From: Hydrotalea sp.
GTDB lineage: Bacteria; Bacteroidota; Bacteroidia; Chitinophagales; Chitinophagaceae
Length of the DNA: 64,000 nt
Direction: 5' to 3'
Assembly (NCBI GenBank): GCA_027364735.1
Contig: DAHXOT010000036.1
Coordinates: forward strand, 1-64,000
Positions within the stretch are counted from its first letter, which is position 1, and the number at the start of each line of letters is the position of its first letter. The position numbers and the translations under genes are program-made. The notes beneath the pieces are model-generated. The model was not told where the DNA came from, made no database searches, and saw nothing but the letters and a program-made list of their open reading frames with translations. Of the stretch, positions 32,568-61,693 are shown piece by piece.

Positions 32568-32774
32568 AGTTGCTTAATTTACTCGGTAAAGCTAAACAGC
32601 AGCATTTATTACTGTTACTTAAAAACAGTTAATTCTTTTTAAAATAATACTTAGAAAGTTTAGCTGCCGGCCGGTTTATTATAAAATTAATTGCACAAAT
32701 AACCGGTTCTAAACTTTTCACCATCCCGTTAACAAGTAGTTTTTATTTACGCCAATTAAATAATATTTTCGTGT

Positions 32775-32956
32775 TGCATTTGGTTTACGCTTTGCGTAAT
32801 TAAAAGGGAATCCTGTTAAATTCAGGAGCTATCCCCGTAGCTGTAAGTGTATTGTGTATAACAACTATTGTTCATGCACAAGTAATAACAAAAGCCACTG
32901 TTTACCAACGGGAAGGCGTTATTGTACAACACAAGCCAGAAGACCTGCCTAATGCA
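32775..32956 (+). ncRNA. Cobalamin riboswitch
   Basis: Bases read directly: P1 arms TGCATT (32775-32780) and AATGCA (32951-32956); core AAAAGGGAATCCTG with ATTCAGGAGCT and ATCCCCGTAGCTGTAAG; B12 box GCCACTG at 32894-32900; then GGGAAGGCG and CCAGAAGACCTGCC. These are the invariant blocks of the AdoCbl/MeCbl riboswitch family in the right order. A possible expression-platform hairpin (TTCAC...GTGAA) follows at about 32963-32981. The BtuB-like receptor gene starts 124 bases downstream, so cobalamin presumably turns that gene off. The spacer 32568-32774 holds only a weak -7-like TATTTTCG at 32764-32771; nothing else is seen. Confidence 0.95.
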
Positions 32957-33080
32957 GATTTCATTCACGGCTTTCGGGTGAAAAGCATGGAATGTAAAAT
33001 GCCACTGCAGGGCAATTTATATTTCTCCGTTTTTTATTTTTCCTGAAAGCTCATTGTTCAACACAAAAAACATTTTAACA

Positions 33081-35012
33081 ATGAGCAAAAAAATTACGCT
33101 CCTCTCTACAAGCATGTTGCTTTGTATTGCATCTTTTTCTCAAAAGAACACATTACAAAATAACGAATTAGATCCGGTTGTTGTTACTGCCAATAAAATG
33201 GAACAAAAACAAAGTACTACCGGAAAAGTAATTACCATTATTAACAAAGAAACAATTAACAAAAATGCCGGAAAAACAATAGCACAAATACTAAACGATC
33301 AGGCAGGTATTACCATTAACGGTGCATTAAATAATTTAGGAAGTGTGCAAACCGTTTATATGCGTGGCGCCGCCAGCGGAAGAACTTTAATTTTATTAGA
33401 TGGCATACCGGTTAACGATCCTTCAATGATAAATAATGAATTTGATTTGAATTTATTTTCCTTAACCGATGTAGAACGTATTGAAATTTGTAAAGGCGCT
33501 CAAAGCACTTTATATGGCAGTGATGCTATTGCAGGAGTTATTAATATTATTACTGCCAAAAAAAATATTTCGAAACCTGTTAACCTTACTGCAAGCAGTT
33601 CGGGCGGCATCTTTGATACATGGAAAGGGAATATGCAATTATATGGCAAAATTGGAAAATTAACGTATACCACCCGTTATTCTAAAATTATTTCACAGGG
33701 ATTTTCTTCTGCGTATGATAGTACCGGTAAAAATAATTTTGATAAAGATGGTTATAATGGAAACAACTTAAATGCTACTATACAGTATCAAGCAACAGAA
33801 AAATTGTCGGTAAAAACCTATGCTTTATATAGCGATTATACAACAGGAGCAGATGCTGGTCCATTTACCGATAAAACCAATTTCGATATTTTTAATAAAA
33901 ATTTTACCACCGGATTAAGCTTTACACTAAAAGAAAAAAAATACAGCATTACCGGTAATTATCAGTACAATAGCTTAAATAGAAATTATAACGATAATGC
34001 TTCTGTTATTGGCGCAAACGCTTATTCGTTAAACAACTATAATAGCATTGCCCAATTTGCCGAAGTGTATAGCAGCATTAATTTAGGTAAGGGCTTTAGT
34101 TTATTAGCAGGAACAGATTACAGATATGGTTCTATGAACAATCAATACAATTCTGTAAGTACATGGGGACCTTACAAAAGTAGCTTCAACGATACAGGCT
34201 TTTACCAAAACTCGTTATACAGTTCTTTGTATTATACACACCGGCATTTTACACTTGAATTGGGAGGAAGATATAATCATCACTCTCGTTATGGCAACAA
34301 CTATACTTATACTTTCAATCCATCTTATACAATCAATACGCATTTTAGAATATTTGGAAGTATTGCCTCCGGATTTAAAGCTCCTAGTTTATATCAGCTA
34401 TACGATTCATATAGTGGCAACATTCATTTACAGCCCGAAAAATCGGTTAACTACGAGATAGGTGTTGAACACAAAAATCAATTGCTTACACAACGTTTAG
34501 TATTCTTTTACAGAAATATAAATAATGGCATTGATTTTAATTATGTTGCTTACCAATATTTTAATTACATACAAGAAAAAGCTGCGGGTATTGAGTATGA
34601 ACTAAGTATTCATCCTACTAAACAACTAACCATTACCACCAATTATACTTTTCTTACTTCAAAACAAATAACCGAAAGCAGGGTAAGCTTTAATGATACT
34701 ACATACAATTATGCATTACGCCGCCCCAAACACAGCATCAACGTAACGGCCGGCTATCAATTTACTCCTACAATTTATGTAAGTGCCAATGCAAAATATG
34801 TAAGTAGAAGATATGATATTGGCGGATATCAATTACCCGATGTGGCACTTGATAGTTATTTGTTATTGGGAGTTTATGCAGAATATGATACTAAAAAATA
34901 TTTTAAACTATATATTAATTTACAAAATATTACCAATAAGAAATTTTTTGATATAAATGGATATAACAGTATCCCATTTATGTATACAATAGGTGCAGCC
35001 ATTAAATTATAA
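33081..35012 (+). CDS. btuB: BtuB-like TonB-dependent cobalamin receptor
   Basis: About 643 residues from ATG 33081; a TTG at 33054 is the only earlier start and lacks a signal peptide. After a signal peptide (LLSTSMLLCIASFSQ) comes a TonB-box-like LDPVVVTANK, then plug (GSVQTVYMRGAASGRTLILLDGIPV, RIEICKGAQSTLYGSDAIAGVINIIT) and barrel to IGAAIKL. Length and the immediate cobalamin riboswitch fit BtuB. It imports cobalamin or cobinamide across the outer membrane with TonB-ExbBD energy. The inner-membrane BtuCDF is not in the window. Next gene is a CWC-type Cys-rich protein 20 bases on. Confidence 0.9.
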   Translation: MSKKITLLSTSMLLCIASFSQKNTLQNNELDPVVVTANKMEQKQSTTGKVITIINKETINKNAGKTIAQILNDQAGITINGALNNLGSVQTVYMRGAASGRTLILLDGIPVNDPSMINNEFDLNLFSLTDVERIEICKGAQSTLYGSDAIAGVINIITAKKNISKPVNLTASSSGGIFDTWKGNMQLYGKIGKLTYTTRYSKIISQGFSSAYDSTGKNNFDKDGYNGNNLNATIQYQATEKLSVKTYALYSDYTTGADAGPFTDKTNFDIFNKNFTTGLSFTLKEKKYSITGNYQYNSLNRNYNDNASVIGANAYSLNNYNSIAQFAEVYSSINLGKGFSLLAGTDYRYGSMNNQYNSVSTWGPYKSSFNDTGFYQNSLYSSLYYTHRHFTLELGGRYNHHSRYGNNYTYTFNPSYTINTHFRIFGSIASGFKAPSLYQLYDSYSGNIHLQPEKSVNYEIGVEHKNQLLTQRLVFFYRNINNGIDFNYVAYQYFNYIQEKAAGIEYELSIHPTKQLTITTNYTFLTSKQITESRVSFNDTTYNYALRRPKHSINVTAGYQFTPTIYVSANAKYVSRRYDIGGYQLPDVALDSYLLLGVYAEYDTKKYFKLYINLQNITNKKFFDINGYNSIPFMYTIGAAIKL

Positions 35013-55565: not shown

Positions 55566-56705
55566 TTAATGAAAAATTTCTTTCAACGCAGAAATGAATG
55601 ATAGTTTAGATGGCAATGACGAAATTATTCTAATATCATTAACAATATCAGTTTCATTATCCAAAAACTGCAATATTTTTTGTGGCTTATTTTTCTTAAA
55701 TAGTTGAGAAAATATTTTTGCAGCAATTAGTTTATTGTGGTGCAATACACTTAATAAAACAGTATCGTAAAAAGCAAATTTCCTTTGCTGCCATCCCCTT
55801 CCGGAAGAAGGATATTTATTTTGAATTAATAGCTCAACAATTTCATTAGTTCTTTTTTGAATAAACTGAAAAGTATATCCACTGCTTGCTTTAGTATCTC
55901 CTCCTGCAGTTCCGATATTAATTATTGCACCATCGTGCTTTTTAAAATTATATGTAGTCATGGGAATAATTCCAAACTCTGTATGCGATACGGAAAAATC
56001 AGTAATTCCTAATTTATCTTGTATGTATTTATACAACTCTGCATCGTAGTCATTTTGCTCAAGTACCGCATCTGTAAACATAGTAAATTCAACCAAAGCC
56101 TCGTTTGCAGAAAATGGCAATACATACATAAATGCTGTACCGTTGTGTTGACTAACTGTAAAATCCATAAAAGTAGCAACAGTGTTATCAAAAACATTTT
56201 TTTCTGTTTTAATAATCCATCCTTTGAAGTGTTGCTTTAATTTAAACGTATCTTCAATAGAATGAAAGAGTATTGAATTAAAAACAAATGTTGATTGATA
56301 AATAGTTGTTGCAGTAAAAACCAGTGCCTTATTATTAACAGAATGAATGGAAAGAACTTTATTAGTTACGAAATGAACATTAGGAAATGCTGCAGCATAC
56401 TCCATTACATACTTATAAAAATCAATCCCTTTAATTAGCTTATACGTATATGGAAGTATTGAAAAAGAAGAATGATACTGCTGAGATTGAAAAGATAATT
56501 GTTGCCATTGATGGTAAACAATATCTTCAAAAAGGCCTTTCCCTTTTTCCCAAAAACACCATGTTCTATCGTTTTTTGTTTTAGCAGAATTGTCAATTAC
56601 TAAAATTTTTTTATACTGCAAAGATGGCTGTTGCAATAATCGCATTAATAAACTTAATCCGGCGCACCCGGCACCGGTAATAATATAATCGTACTCATTA
56701 TTCAA
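55566..56705 (-). CDS. crtY: Lycopene beta-cyclase, CrtY family
   Basis: 379 residues from TTG 56705; no in-frame ATG fits and the FAD motif YDYIITGAGCAGLSLL starts at once. Further marks are DRTWCFWEKG and GAIINIGTAGGDTKASSGYTF. Reaction: cyclises both ends of lycopene to beta-carotene. Neighbours crtZ and crtI/crtB supply the rest of the pathway. A weak start may make CrtY levels low. Confidence 0.88.
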   Translation of the reverse strand: MNNEYDYIITGAGCAGLSLLMRLLQQPSLQYKKILVIDNSAKTKNDRTWCFWEKGKGLFEDIVYHQWQQLSFQSQQYHSSFSILPYTYKLIKGIDFYKYVMEYAAAFPNVHFVTNKVLSIHSVNNKALVFTATTIYQSTFVFNSILFHSIEDTFKLKQHFKGWIIKTEKNVFDNTVATFMDFTVSQHNGTAFMYVLPFSANEALVEFTMFTDAVLEQNDYDAELYKYIQDKLGITDFSVSHTEFGIIPMTTYNFKKHDGAIINIGTAGGDTKASSGYTFQFIQKRTNEIVELLIQNKYPSSGRGWQQRKFAFYDTVLLSVLHHNKLIAAKIFSQLFKKNKPQKILQFLDNETDIVNDIRIISSLPSKLSFISALKEIFH

Positions 56706-56716
56706 GTAAAAAATAT

Positions 56717-57187
56717 TTACTGTTGTTGAATTGCTTCATCTCTTCTAATCTTATTCCAGTATTTTCCGGCAACAATCAGCATACCAAAACTTTCTCCTTG
56801 TTCTTTACCAATATGTTTATGATGCATTTTATGTGCCCAACGTATTGCCTTTATGTAACGACTATTTGTTTTAGAAAACCATTTTATACGCTGATGTATT
56901 ATTATTTCGTGTACCAAAAAATAGGCAAATCCATAAAGTGCAATCCCGAACCCAATTGCTGCTGTGTAATAATACTGATTTGTAACACCCAACAGAATAC
57001 ATAGAAAACTGGGTATTGCAAAAATTAAGAAAAATGCATCATTCTTCTCTACTTTATTCCCCTTAGGGTTATGATGATCTTCATGCAAATACCATAAAAA
57101 TCCATGCATTATATATTTATGTGTTAGCCAAGTAACAGGCTCCATAAGTATAAAAGTTGCCAACATTGTAAGTATGTATAGTATCAT
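56717..57187 (-). CDS. crtZ: Beta-carotene hydroxylase, CrtZ
   Basis: 156 residues, usual for CrtZ. Di-iron His boxes are all visible: HKYIMH (23-28), HEDHH (35-39), HEIIIH and HKMHHKH. Several membrane helices. Reaction: hydroxylates beta-carotene at 3 and 3' to zeaxanthin. It lies between idi and crtY with 8- and 11-base gaps. Confidence 0.92.
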   Translation of the reverse strand: MILYILTMLATFILMEPVTWLTHKYIMHGFLWYLHEDHHNPKGNKVEKNDAFFLIFAIPSFLCILLGVTNQYYYTAAIGFGIALYGFAYFLVHEIIIHQRIKWFSKTNSRYIKAIRWAHKMHHKHIGKEQGESFGMLIVAGKYWNKIRRDEAIQQQ

Positions 57188-57195
57188 AAAAAATA

Positions 57196-57759
57196 TTAAC
57201 TATTAAATGAAAAACTGGTTTGCAGTAAACTATTGTTTGCCAATCTATTTTCTATCCACCAATCAAATATTTTAGGAAATGCAATATAAAACCATGCTGT
57301 ATAATGTTTGGTATCACTATGCAAAGTTTCATTTATATGGTACATTGATTTGTATTCAACCGCATGTACTTCATTTTTATTGGCCATAACTTCACCATTG
57401 TAATTACCAACCAATACATGATCATACTCATGTTCAATTAATCCATTATCTAAACTTGCTTTATAGGTAAACTGAAATACGTTTTGCAAATAAGTATGAA
57501 ATCCCATTTCTTCTTTCAACCTTCTTTTGGCAGCAGATAAAATTGTTTCGTTATATCGGGGATGGCTACAACAAGCATTTGACCATAATCCTCCACTATG
57601 ATACTTTGAAAACGCTCTTTGCTGCAATAACATTTCTCCTTTATCATTAAAAATAAAAATACTAAATGCCCTATGCAATAAAGCCTTCTCATGTGCTTCT
57701 ATTTTTTCCATCAATCCTTTTTCATTATCGTATTCATCTACCAAAATTACTTGTTCCAT
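57196..57759 (-). CDS. idi: Isopentenyl-diphosphate isomerase, type I
   Basis: 187 residues from ATG 57759. A longer frame to 58005 would overlap crtB and is a shadow. Nudix-like fold: HRAFSIFIFNDKGEMLLQQRA, GGLWSNACCSHPRYNE (active Cys) and AAKRRLKEEMGF with the metal/acid Glu. Reaction: isopentenyl to dimethylallyl diphosphate, feeding GGPP for crtB. No GGPP synthase in this window. Confidence 0.9.
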   Translation of the reverse strand: MEQVILVDEYDNEKGLMEKIEAHEKALLHRAFSIFIFNDKGEMLLQQRAFSKYHSGGLWSNACCSHPRYNETILSAAKRRLKEEMGFHTYLQNVFQFTYKASLDNGLIEHEYDHVLVGNYNGEVMANKNEVHAVEYKSMYHINETLHSDTKHYTAWFYIAFPKIFDWWIENRLANNSLLQTSFSFNS

Positions 57760-57772
57760 GCTGTAGCTTTTA

Positions 57773-58609
57773 TTACAATAAATTAAGTTGACTACGAAAA
57801 CTTGCTTTTGCCCAAATAAACATTTTATGATAATCGGGTATTCTAATACGCTGTTGCAATATTTTCTGTGGCTGTACTTTTTTAATTTTAGTAAATAAAG
57901 AATAATAATATTTATAAGCAACATAAACCCCAAATCGGGCTTTAATAGGAAGTTGTACAACACCTTTGTATGCTTGCTGAAAATCATTTTCAATATCTGC
58001 TTCAATTAATTGTTTATCGCTGTATGTAAATCGCTCAAAATTGCAATTAGGAAAATATATTCTTTTTAATCCTTCATAATCGGCTTTCACATCACGTAAA
58101 AAATTAATTTTTTGAAATGCAGCTCCCAAGCTTTTGGCAGCAGGTTCTAACTTTTTATATTTTACCGAATTACCTTCGCAAAAAACATATAAACACATTA
58201 ATCCTACCACTTCGGCACTACCATAAATATATTCTTTATAATCATTTTCTTCGTAAGCTATTCTATATAAATCCATTTCCATGCTCTTAAAAAAAGATTC
58301 AATTAAATTATGATCAATATTATATTGATTAACGGTTAACTGAAAACTATGTAAAATAGGGTTTAAACTTATTTTACTATTGATTGCCTCGTAAGTAGCT
58401 TCTTTAAATTGCTGTAATAAAAATGCTTTATCGTATGCATGAAATGTATCTACAATTTCATCGGCAAAACGAACAAACCCATAAATATTACAAATTGGAA
58501 CTCGTAAACTTTTGTGCAACAAGTTAATTGCACTGGAGAATGAAGTACTGTATTGCTTTGTTGTAATACGGCTACACTCTTGGCTTACTTGATGAAACAA
58601 TTGCATCAT
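57773..58609 (-). CDS. crtB: Phytoene synthase, CrtB
   Basis: 278 residues. Aspartate-rich site one FVRFADEIVDTFHAYD; site two LGAAFQKINFLRDVKADY, then GLKRIYFPNC. The pair fixes the squalene/phytoene synthase family. Reaction: joins two GGPP to phytoene. It follows crtI by 38 bases in the crt run. Confidence 0.92.
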   Translation of the reverse strand: MMQLFHQVSQECSRITTKQYSTSFSSAINLLHKSLRVPICNIYGFVRFADEIVDTFHAYDKAFLLQQFKEATYEAINSKISLNPILHSFQLTVNQYNIDHNLIESFFKSMEMDLYRIAYEENDYKEYIYGSAEVVGLMCLYVFCEGNSVKYKKLEPAAKSLGAAFQKINFLRDVKADYEGLKRIYFPNCNFERFTYSDKQLIEADIENDFQQAYKGVVQLPIKARFGVYVAYKYYYSLFTKIKKVQPQKILQQRIRIPDYHKMFIWAKASFRSQLNLL

Positions 58610-58647: not shown

Positions 58648-60177
58648 TTATGAATTGAACTCTGCACTATACGCATTAACCTCACTGTATTTAACTACTT
58701 CTTTTGCTACTACTTCTCCACTAATTAAACTCGGCGGAACACCCGGCCCGGGAACCGTAAGTTGCCCGGCATAAAAAAGATTATTTACTTTTTTACTTTT
58801 ACAACTTGGCTTTAAAATAGCCGTTTGCCATAATGTATTTGCTAATCCGTAAGCATTGCCTTTAAACGAATGATATTCCGTAACAAAATCACTATTGGCA
58901 AAAGAACTTTTGTATATAATATTATTTTTAATTGGTTCTCCTAATAATTTTTCCATTCTTTCAATAACCAATTCAAAATAATGCTCACGTATTGCATCGG
59001 TATCATTGTTTAATTCGGTTGCAACCGGAATTAAAATCATTAAATTCTCGCAACCTTCCGGTGCTACCGTATTATCTGTTGCCGATGCTACATTTACATA
59101 AAACAATGGATTGGTAGGCCATTCTTTTGTTTCATAAATCTCTTTTCCATGCACTTCAAAAGAAGTATCGAAAAATAAATTATGATGTAAAATATTTTTT
59201 AGTTTTTTATTTAATCCTATATAAAATAAAATACAACTTGGAGCCATTACTCTCGTATTCCAATATTTTTCTGAATAGCTGCGCCATTGTTGTTGCAATA
59301 ACTTCGATTCAACATGATGATAGTCTGCTCCGCTTACTATAACATCTGCATCTAAAAAAAGTTCTTTATTTGATTGGGTATTAATAGATTTAATGGACCG
59401 AGCAATCGCATTTTCTACAATAATTTCTTGCACATCTTCATTAAAATAAAATTCTACGCCCAATTCCTTGGCTACACTGTACATAGCTTCTACAATACTA
59501 TACATGCCTTTTTCCGGATACCAGGTTCCACCAATGATATCGGCATAATTCATTAAACTATATAATGCAGGGGTTTTTTTAGGCAATGCTCCTAAAAACA
59601 ATACCGGAAACTCCATTAACTCTTTTAACTTAGTATGCTTAAAATATTTGGCTACATGGCGGGTAATAGAATTAAATACATCTAACTTAAATATTCCTTT
59701 TAATAATTTAATATCTAAGAATTCTCGGAGAGATTGCCCTGGTTTATGAACCAGTTGATGAATACCTACTTTGTATTTATATTCTGCTTCGGCTAAAAAT
59801 TTTTGTAATTTATTACCGCTTTCGGGTTCAATAGAATTAAAAGTGTTTTTCAATTCGTTATAATCTGCCGGTATATCTAAGGTTGAATCGGAATAATATA
59901 TTCGGTAAGAAGGGTTGAGTCTTTTAAGTTGATAATAATCTGAAACTTTTTTTCCAAAAAGGCCAAAATAACGTTCAAATACATCTGGCATCCAATACCA
60001 GCTTGGTCCCATATCAAAAACAAAACCATCTTTCTTTAATTGTTTTGCTCTTCCACCCGGTACCGAATTTTTTTCAAGTACACTTACTTTATATCCGGCT
60101 TTAGCCAAAAATGTAGCAGCAGATAAACCTGCAAATCCCGAACCAATAACAATTACTTTTTGCTGCACAGGTATCAT
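58648..60177 (-). CDS. crtI: Phytoene desaturase, CrtI
   Basis: 509 residues. FAD-binding KVIVIGSGFAGLSAATFLAKAGYKVSVLEK and the C-terminal LFYAGQLTVPGPGVPPSLISGEVVA are classic for CrtI. Reaction: introduces double bonds to turn phytoene into lycopene. Its ATG starts one base after the stop of the sigma gene, so translation is coupled. Confidence 0.94.
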   Translation of the reverse strand: MIPVQQKVIVIGSGFAGLSAATFLAKAGYKVSVLEKNSVPGGRAKQLKKDGFVFDMGPSWYWMPDVFERYFGLFGKKVSDYYQLKRLNPSYRIYYSDSTLDIPADYNELKNTFNSIEPESGNKLQKFLAEAEYKYKVGIHQLVHKPGQSLREFLDIKLLKGIFKLDVFNSITRHVAKYFKHTKLKELMEFPVLFLGALPKKTPALYSLMNYADIIGGTWYPEKGMYSIVEAMYSVAKELGVEFYFNEDVQEIIVENAIARSIKSINTQSNKELFLDADVIVSGADYHHVESKLLQQQWRSYSEKYWNTRVMAPSCILFYIGLNKKLKNILHHNLFFDTSFEVHGKEIYETKEWPTNPLFYVNVASATDNTVAPEGCENLMILIPVATELNNDTDAIREHYFELVIERMEKLLGEPIKNNIIYKSSFANSDFVTEYHSFKGNAYGLANTLWQTAILKPSCKSKKVNNLFYAGQLTVPGPGVPPSLISGEVVAKEVVKYSEVNAYSAEFNS

Positions 60178-60178
60178 T

Positions 60179-60679
60179 TTAGTTACGTTCTAATTGGCTT
60201 TTCAAGAGTTTACGGGCAAAGTGAATTCTGCTTTTAATGGTACCTAAAGGTTCTTGAAGCATGTCGGCAATTTCATGATATTTAAATCCATCGAAATATA
60301 GCAGAAAAGGAGTTTTAAATATTTCGGGCAACTCGTAAATAGCTGCCTGCACCTCTTTAATGTTTAAATTAACCAGCGCTTCGTTGGCAACTGCACCCTG
60401 ATTAAGGTTTAACAGAAAATCGTTGGGGGTGGCATCGAAAATAGTTTGCTGCTTCGATTTTCTGCGATAATTATTGATAAAAATATTTCGCATGATTGTA
60501 TATAACCATGCTTTAATATTTGTTCCTGCCAAATATTTTTCTCGGTTAGCTAATGCTCTGTACATTGTTTCTTGAACAAGATCTTTGGCCTGTTCCTGAT
60601 CTCGCGTTAATGTTATTGCAAAAGGTTTTAGGTATTCGGTGCTATTGATTAACACTCTATTAAATTCTACTGCCACCAT
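60179..60679 (-). CDS. ECF sigma factor of the carotenoid cluster
   Basis: 166 residues from ATG 60679; an upstream TTG (60718) would put the -7 box inside the coding region, so it is rejected. Region 2: AITLTRDQEQAKDLVQETMYRALA and GTNIKAWLYTIMRNIFINNYRR. Region 4: LPEIFKTPFLLYFDGFKYHEIADMLQEPLGTIKSRIHFARKLL. It is coupled to crtI and sits below a B12-type regulator gene. In Streptomyces a LitR-LitS pair has like roles. Inference: light-induced sigma that widens the response. Confidence 0.87.
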   Translation of the reverse strand: MVAVEFNRVLINSTEYLKPFAITLTRDQEQAKDLVQETMYRALANREKYLAGTNIKAWLYTIMRNIFINNYRRKSKQQTIFDATPNDFLLNLNQGAVANEALVNLNIKEVQAAIYELPEIFKTPFLLYFDGFKYHEIADMLQEPLGTIKSRIHFARKLLKSQLERN

Positions 60680-60684
60680 ATAAT

Positions 60685-60776
60685 TTTGTTTAACTATTGA
60701 ATAACCAAAGTTAAACAAATAATTTTTAGACCGCCAAATTTTTGTTTAATTTTTTTTATAAAAAGAATAAACAAAA
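60685..60776. promoter_or_regulatory. Twin dyad operator: two copies of TGTTTA-N19-TAAACA
   Basis: Dyad A: TGTTTA 60687-60692 and TAAACA 60712-60717, inside an 11-bp perfect inverted repeat (TTTGTTTAACT / AGTTAAACAAA). Dyad B: TGTTTA 60743-60748 and TAAACA 60768-60773. Both spacers are exactly 19 bases and the centres are 56 bases apart. Dyad A covers the -7 box of the sigma-crt promoter; dyad B lies upstream of the -33 box. Likely sites for the adjacent B12-type MerR protein. Confidence 0.75.
60706..60738 (-). promoter_or_regulatory. Promoter of the sigma-crt operon
   Basis: On the minus strand TTTG (60738-60735), 21 bases, then TAACTTTG (60713-60706), a full Bacteroidota -33/-7 pair. The ATG of the sigma gene is 26 bases below the -7 box. 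It is overlapped by an inverted repeat, see the twin dyad. Confidence 0.7.
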
Positions 60777-60814
60777 TTCTATGAAGAAATATTTCTTACT
60801 TAATACAACCTATT

Positions 60815-61693
60815 TTACATGCTGCCAATAAAATGCATTACTTCGGAGAGAGATTTACACAAACTAATGTTCTCAGGAATTTTTTTCTTATAGTTTATTG
60901 TATGATAACCAGAAATGATAATTGAAAAGTTAGCCAATTGCTGATGCAACTGATTTAAAAAATGATCGAACCTAAAGTTTCCCATTACCGATGTAATATG
61001 CGTATAAATAAAATGCGGCTGCTTCAGCTTAGCTAAGTATTCAATATCTCTTAACGGAACATTAGCACCTACATATATTATTTTAAACCCTCTTTCTTTC
61101 AAAATAAAATTAATAAATAACAACCCCAACTCATGGTATTCACCTTCGGGTAAAAATAATAAGGCCACTTTATTTCGCTGAATAGGGCTTGCCACATTAT
61201 CAATACCTACAATAATTTTTTGCCTAATAATATTGGTTACTAAATGCTCTTGTGCAGGAATAATATGATTGGTTTGCCATAAAATGCCAATACGTTCTAA
61301 AAACGGAAATATAATTTGTATAATTGCTTTTTCTACTCCTTTGGCAGCAATATAATTTTCCAACTCTGCCTCTAATTTCTCTAACGAAAATTCAACCAAA
61401 TACTTTATCAATTCATTTATTACTCGTTCTTGTTGTGCTTGTTGGTTATTTAATCCTAATACTTTTTGCTTAATCTCTTGTTCGCTCAGCTTATCAATAT
61501 GCGAAATCTTAAAGCCATATTTATTTAATAAAGAAATGTTCAATAAAGTTTGCAATTCGGCATTACTATAGTGCCTAATATTTGTTTCGGTACGTTGTGG
61601 TTTTAAGAACGAATAGCGTTGCTCCCATATTCGTATTGTATGAGCTTTAATGCCCGATAAATTTTCTAAATCTTTAATACTAAAAACATTCAT
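60815..61693 (-). CDS. CarH/LitR-like MerR regulator with cobalamin-binding domain
   Basis: 292 residues. N-terminal MerR helix-turn-helix (about 1-70; FSIKDLENLSGIKAHTIRIWEQRY). A four-helix B12-cap region has Trp139 and, nine residues on, Glu149-His150 (W-x9-EH). The Rossmann domain has E185-x-H187-x-x-G190 (EYHELG), the base-off cobalamin motif. Family knowledge: W-x9-EH plus ExHxxG marks AdoCbl-dependent photoreceptors such as CarH, which hold operators in the dark and leave in light. Inference: light control of the sigma-crt operon beside it. It is transcribed in the same direction but the crt promoter lies after it. Confidence 0.88.
   Translation of the reverse strand: MNVFSIKDLENLSGIKAHTIRIWEQRYSFLKPQRTETNIRHYSNAELQTLLNISLLNKYGFKISHIDKLSEQEIKQKVLGLNNQQAQQERVINELIKYLVEFSLEKLEAELENYIAAKGVEKAIIQIIFPFLERIGILWQTNHIIPAQEHLVTNIIRQKIIVGIDNVASPIQRNKVALLFLPEGEYHELGLLFINFILKERGFKIIYVGANVPLRDIEYLAKLKQPHFIYTHITSVMGNFRFDHFLNQLHQQLANFSIIISGYHTINYKKKIPENISLCKSLSEVMHFIGSM

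Follow-up and report, generated by a model that had tools for sequence, protein, structure and literature searches.

We found two copies of a spaced inverted dyad, A and B, between the 3' end of a CarH-like gene and an ECF sigma factor gene in Hydrotalea sp. (Chitinophagaceae, Bacteroidota), and these dyads probably serve as operator for the CarH-type protein encoded next to them, with dark repression by AdoCbl-bound CarH and release in the light. This reading is based on sequence comparison, which shows the dyad to be a conserved, roughly two-fold symmetric DNA element that follows this carH more closely than it follows the operon or the position of carH. CarH is the best-known case of B12 acting as a light sensor. 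A conserved inverted operator in another phylum would mean that the same sensor can be wired to DNA in a different geometry, and the present analysis offers exact candidate sites and a predicted light switch for Bacteroidota. The window hereafter denotes the whole analysed stretch of 64,000 nucleotides.

The dyads, their promoter and the neighbouring genes

The original prediction had described two TGTTTA-N19-TAAACA dyads with 11-bp perfect arms in dyad A. Both dyads were recovered exactly (Table 1), with centres 56 bp apart in the Hydrotalea window, and dyad A has its perfect arms at 60685-60695 (TTTGTTTAACT) and 60709-60719 (AGTTAAACAAA). The TGTTTA/TAAACA motif is not rare by itself, since with spacers of 15-23 nt it occurs at 11 places across the 2.77 Mb genome versus 13 for the reversed control; the window holds two such matches, with a shuffle mean of 0.36 and two or more reached in 3/100 shuffles. 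Exact N19 copies in the genome were limited to dyads A and B, and the whole-genome motif scan found no exact dyad before carH itself.

Table 1. Positions of the dyads, promoter elements and genes in the window
Feature	Position	Strand	Remarks
CarH/LitR-type regulator	60815-61693	-	MerR DNA-binding domain, four-helix B12-binding_2, Rossmann B12-binding
Dyad B	60743-60773	.	TGTTTA-N19-TAAACA; upstream of the -33 element
-33 element TTTG	60735-60738	-	21 nt from the -7 element; between the dyads
Dyad A	60687-60717	.	TGTTTA-N19-TAAACA; conserved operator (predicted) over the -7 element and predicted start site
-7 element TAACTTTG	60706-60713	-	inside one half-site of dyad A
ECF-type sigma factor	60179-60679	-	first gene of the operon; ATG 60679
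crtI-type desaturase	58648-60177	-	NCBIfam CrtID above cut-off
crtB, phytoene/squalene synthase family	57773-58609	-	family search
idi, isopentenyl-diphosphate isomerase	57196-57759	-	start at MEQVILV read by eye
crtZ (name from the original prediction)	56717-57187	-	no Pfam or NCBIfam match
crtY, lycopene cyclase	55566-56705	-	family search

A promoter of the Bacteroidota sigma-A type fits the minus strand, in line with the -33/-7 promoter that had been proposed. The transcription start is predicted at ~60701, the centre of dyad A and 22 nt ahead of the sigma ATG, because the Bacteroidota -7 consensus TAnnTTTG is located at -12 to -5 (PMC9723704, excerpt); dyad A would then extend from about -16 to +15 and dyad B from about -72 to -42. 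The claim that the binder is a repressor is thereby supported indirectly, because dyad A covers both the -7 element and the predicted start. A light-activated activator, working as Streptomyces LitR does on the litS promoter, would share the same logic of a B12-type MerR regulator and an ECF sigma factor, LitR promoting litS after light (PMC12705666, excerpt), but it is improbable here: dyad A lies neither upstream of nor between the promoter elements, and the upstream dyad B (up to one mismatch) was not found in 31/74 family loci. A dyad between the -35/-33 and -10/-7 elements, as for MerR-type activator sites, is not seen at this promoter, whose start site is a predicted one.

Behind the sigma gene, the operon continues with crtI, crtB, idi, crtZ and crtY. 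Two starts in the mechanical ORF list were replaced: for sigma, TTG 60718 gave way to ATG 60679 as most likely, and for idi, the listed start at 58005 falls far inside crtB, the likely one being ~57759. The supply of AdoCbl appears plausible, because the genome contains a Cob_adeno_trans (adenosyltransferase) gene and one cobalamin riboswitch before a TonB-receptor-like ORF. This riboswitch (Rfam RF00174, 103 bits) lies on the plus strand at window 32764-32966. The ORF behind it (33054-35012), ~28 kb from carH, reads like a BtuB-type TonB-dependent receptor, and together they are probably a B12 uptake locus.

The regulator has the MerR, four-helix and Rossmann B12 domains of class I CarH/LitR proteins, stands next to carotenoid genes as these do, and is the only CarH homologue in the window genome at E<=0.001. 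Its nearest solved structures by sequence are those of T. thermophilus CarH/LitR, and an AlphaFold model (pLDDT 90) gave CarH 5c8e and 5c8d as best PDB matches; full-length superposition on CarH structures is loose (TM ~0.5, rmsd 9-15), probably due to differently placed domains. Residues W139, E149, H150, E185 and H187 align with Thermus W131, E141, H142, E175 and H177, so that W-x9-EH and the cobalt-ligand histidine of class I are retained. The NCBIfam CarH equivalog model was not passed, the best NCBIfam hit reaching 108.7 bits versus a cut-off of 400, which we judge to be narrow.

There is a smaller possibility, to be kept in mind, that CarH binds and represses without AdoCbl chemistry, in a CarA-like manner or with another chromophore, and that the light step differs. 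A B12-independent CarA is known (PMC9304148, excerpt), the Pfam searches matched MerR_1 and B12-binding_2 while the Rossmann B12-binding match stayed below its cut-off (28.5 vs 32.1), and plain [DE]xHxxG was present in 136/154 relatives, not in all. However, W-x9-EH occurs in 152/154 relatives, and the B12-ligand histidine is found at the aligned position in 99% of rows.

Distribution and anatomy of the dyad among relatives

The family survey covered 147 genomes, with a CarH hit in 92 and a close sigma relative in 101. Upstream DNA was taken for all 102 sigma matches (102-row table), and 11 of the 92 genomes with a CarH hit had no sigma match and fall outside this table. By our own reading, one genome without sigma match (G081) has an N19 dyad directly before crtI. 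A dyad was counted within 100 bp of the sigma start, with at most one mismatch and a gap of 16-22; the 215-bit threshold for carH was chosen once the table had been viewed, between scores of 220.6 and 214.

The dyad was found at sigma in 73/74 family loci from genomes with carH at 215 bits or more, 67 of them exact, versus 3/28 loci from genomes without it, which divide into 2/7 with only a weak paralogue and 1/21 with no carH. In both weak-paralogue genomes with a dyad, sigma lies at a contig end and carH1 was possibly cut off. Shuffled upstream DNA gave chance rates of 3.6% (up to one mismatch) and 0.14% (exact), and reversed reading of the 74 sequences gave 13/74 and 1/74, respectively. Chance had been thought unlikely from the arrangement in a single genome, and these counts bear this out for a putative regulator-binding site (Fisher p ~2e-19 for dyad versus carH, a value that ignores kinship).

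Kinship was taken into account with an rpoB tree of 95/101 sigma genomes, six having no usable rpoB (G040, G043, G074, G086, G095, G136). Fourteen independent pairs on supported branches differed in carH; the dyad changed in the same way in 10.7 of these on average, in the opposite way in 0 and not at all in 3.3 (median p 0.001). With a 200-bit threshold, 9.8 of 13 pairs changed the same way and 0 opposed (median p ~0.002), and without the three draft-genome exceptions, 10.8 of 11 pairs did so. The rpoB tree replaced a sigma-protein tree that was too weakly resolved, where four supported pairs (median p 0.25) put significance out of reach. As the dyad tracks carH in this manner, the adjacent CarH-like protein, already named as the regulator in the original prediction, is very likely the protein that binds these sites.

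Loci that keep the synteny of regulator and crt genes without the dyad were looked for specifically. Where carH (at least 215 bits) lies upstream of sigma in the same direction, the dyad was kept in 64/65 family loci. A named set, made of the best 80 of 174 hits, mostly from records under the name Chitinophagaceae or its genera, and not independent because it overlaps the family set, had dyad A (gap of 17-20) in 66/66 loci with sigma downstream of carH, 62 of them exact; the 14/80 without a downstream sigma were not counted. Where carH is unlinked to sigma, an exact dyad was present at sigma in 7/7 genomes (G010, G145, G047, G134, G055, G106, G062). Conversely, sigma lies beside crtI, with carH not found and the dyad absent, in G015, G059 and G141, the latter two belonging to one genus and G141 being 60% complete.

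The exceptions are few. In G085, carH adjoins sigma and the right half-site has decayed, and in G111, a weak carH (214 bits) is linked to sigma and the dyad is absent. Three genomes have a dyad with no carH1 found, G023 and G122 with the locus at contig ends and G112 being 69% complete.

The association could also arise if the sites were bound by a different regulator that travels with carH, such as an unlinked repressor or one of the carH paralogues, given that a second CarH-like gene is common among relatives and that dyads of the same form precede paralogue loci. We consider this distinctly unlikely, since the window genome carries both dyads yet a single CarH homologue, and the weak paralogue alone was accompanied by a dyad only in the two contig-end cases described above.

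Across the 73 A sites, the core reads TGTTTAA ... TTAAACA. Further inward, TTT at +8 to +10 of the left half coincides with the -7 box, and A is found at -6, -5 and -3 of the right half. Dyad B, which contains no -7 box, has a T-run at +9 to +11 and, as its mirror image, an A-run at -6 to -4. The best dyads had spacers of 18 or 19 when gaps of either 16-22 or 17-20 were permitted; the site-profile counts, including those of dyad B and the core letters, used gaps 18 and 19 only. A TAnnTT[TC][GA] box stands at the same offset within one half of A in 66/73 A sites, with TTG 18-23 nt from it in 44/73 and absent in 29.

The position of the -7 element within one half-site raises the question of whether the dyad belongs to the promoter itself or serves the ECF sigma factor for autoregulation. 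This explanation is highly improbable, as loci with sigma and without carH1 lack the dyad but keep a box resembling the -7 element (at least 5 of its 6 letters in 24/28, a weak argument because it is the best of ~45 positions), dyads also occur at loci without a sigma match, and in some other families the -7-like box, as we read these sequences, sits in the opposite half of the dyad.

Similarly, the arms can fold as RNA (-11.7 kcal/mol, z -2.65), as they would in a 5'-leader hairpin or attenuator. This reading has very little to recommend it: with the start predicted at the midpoint of dyad A, the transcript would be without one arm, and arm position +7 pairs in 18/73 sites versus 19.2 expected, meaning that the letters are conserved and not the pairing. 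Flanking position -1 pairs above chance in A (46 vs 35.6) and not in B.

Dyad B (up to one mismatch) was present in 43/74 family and 44/66 named loci. The centre distance between A and B was 55-57.5 bp in 44/44 named and 55-57 bp in 41/43 family pairs. This constant spacing need not imply contact between bound units, because the -7 box is part of dyad A and the -33 box is located between A and B. Distances between dyads range from ~44 to 63 in other families, and a general helical-phase rule was therefore dropped. Of the assembly across 90 bases that had been envisaged, the constant dyad A remains, whereas the full span is not required everywhere because of the limited occurrence of dyad B.

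Paralogues, divergent loci and further targets

At six of nine loci examined (L041, L044, L045, L050, L023, L033), sigma has idi as its neighbour, crtI being absent or located elsewhere, and carH and the dyad persist. This suggests that the sigma factor, rather than crtI, is the more constant target.

Many relatives encode a second CarH-like gene. At L116-L127, crtI is immediately preceded by a carH-like paralogue and no sigma hit separates the two, and loci of this type have mostly N18 dyads before crtI and/or the paralogue, some with changed but matching halves; we read them as a parallel, shorter version of the circuit. Altogether, 41 divergent loci were compared, comprising 20 family paralogue loci, 19 loci from other families and two Persicobacter plasmids. 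A symmetric TGTnnA-N18/19-TnnACA dyad (up to one mismatch between halves, anywhere in the locus) was found in 33/41, versus 2.9 expected in sum. These loci contain 50 dyads, 31 with perfectly matching halves and 19 with one mismatch. The perfectly matching ones include two of TGTCTA/TAGACA and one of TGTATA/TATACA, in which the halves co-vary, and three of TGTTCA/TGAACA. The eight loci without a symmetric dyad include five unlinked paralogues. Among L129-L135, where carH-like paralogues lie away from crt genes, 5/7 loci had no symmetric dyad. Two records titled Sphingomonadales (L202, L208) carry a Chitinophagaceae-type CarH of 56-57% identity and are probably mislabelled metagenome bins.

Exact N18-19 dyads occurred at 68 places in 20 chosen genomes versus 49 in the reversed control, 34 at the crt/carH locus and 34 elsewhere by hand tally, and gave no sign of further exact-match regulon targets in these genomes. 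An additional dyad just before carH in 3/20 of them (G058, G070, G140) and in 10/66 named loci makes autoregulation of carH possible in some relatives.

Proposed light switch and comparison with known systems

In the mechanism that we favour, AdoCbl-loaded CarH would, in the dark, sit on the TnnACA half-sites of dyad A, which face outward, and would mask the -7 element and start site, thereby excluding RNA polymerase from the sigma-crtI-crtB-idi-crtZ-crtY operon. Where dyad B is present, a second CarH unit would bind there, upstream of -33. Light would break the Co-C bond, CarH would release the DNA, and the sigma factor and carotenoid enzymes would be made. Given that CarH binds here, we are largely confident in dark repression and find control by AdoCbl and light likely.

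The half-sites, inverted and 24-25 bp apart from centre to centre, could be held by a single dimer whose domains are splayed or by two of the four domains of a tetramer. The tetramer of the original prediction does not carry over by analogy, because the layout differs from the tandem direct repeats of characterised CarH tetramers. The idea of one photoreceptor family with two operator grammars seems to us evenly balanced: Bacteroidota CarH would have given up tandem direct repeats for widely spaced inverted half-sites and a two-fold symmetric assembly, and at promoters with dyad B two such units would clamp the stretch from about -72 to +15. If it is true, the AdoCbl-bound DNA-binding domains would be arranged otherwise than in the Thermus tetramer. 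In this respect, the wing of the DNA-binding domain (residues 37-42) reads TNIRxY in nearly all aligned relatives versus GGHRLY in Thermus, and is a candidate for an altered DNA mode.

The kind of system is known, and the operator layout is new as far as the literature search reached. No description of a Bacteroidota CarH operator was found in titles and abstracts of the open-access literature, nor in the open-access literature one of an inverted operator conserved across a family and beyond for full B12-type CarH; for Chryseobacterium lacus, light-induced carotenoids are described, with no report of car/lit genes in the excerpt of the source (PMC7064467). Inverted layouts as such have precedent in M. 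xanthus CarA and class II LitR.

With Thermus CarH, the regulator shares the protein architecture, W-x9-EH and the B12 histidine. Characterised CarH operators consist of tandem 11-bp direct repeats nnnnTnnACAn with the half-site core TnnACA, Thermus having three copies and Bacillus four (PMC9304148; PMC8156234, excerpt), and the direct-repeat binding is explained by tetramer geometry (PMC8156234, excerpt). The operators of Thermus thermophilus and Bacillus megaterium overlap the promoter, according to the excerpted sources, as the dyad does here; in contrast to the tandem repeats of Thermus, Bacillus and myxobacterial CarH, the half-sites here form spaced inverted pairs. As a positive control, our scan gave exactly three tandem TnnACA and no dyad before Thermus carH (L263:2443), whereas not even one tandem 11-bp pair was found in window 60601-60850, and a tandem-repeat reading of the dyads was rejected. 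Likewise, in the family site profile, TnnACA is not conserved at 11 bp further in from the right half-site. The half-site looks inherited, because the TAAACA of all four half-sites in dyads A and B fits TnnACA, and the arrangement looks changed.

Class II LitR proteins of Pseudomonas (PmlR2, PplR1) also bind symmetric half-sites with a spacer, T(G/A)TACA-N12-TGTA(C/T)A, of which one copy is located at -35 and the other past the start (PMC9758184, excerpt). However, their half-sites are nearer (N12) with ACA inward, unlike the outward-facing TnnACA here, and the proteins have no full B12 domain, PmlR2 working with a LOV protein.

In the Streptomyces litR-litS-crt system, a B12-type MerR regulator and the gene of a sigma factor, which we take to be of the ECF type, control carotenoid genes as they would here; by the excerpted account, light makes LitR promote litS, whereas here the geometry of the promoter speaks for repression.

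In M. xanthus, the CarA operator, which is bound by two CarA dimers, was originally described as two inverted repeats upstream of and overlapping the promoter over ~55 bp (PMC9304148). The Myxococcus xanthus CarA/CarH operator thus resembles ours in having one inverted repeat upstream and one on the promoter, but its repeats are degenerate in relatives and an 11-bp direct-repeat reading of the site is also possible. In our case, the inverted layout persists throughout the family and beyond, spans ~87 bp with both dyads, and has its inner dyad on -7/+1, in contrast to -35 in M. xanthus.
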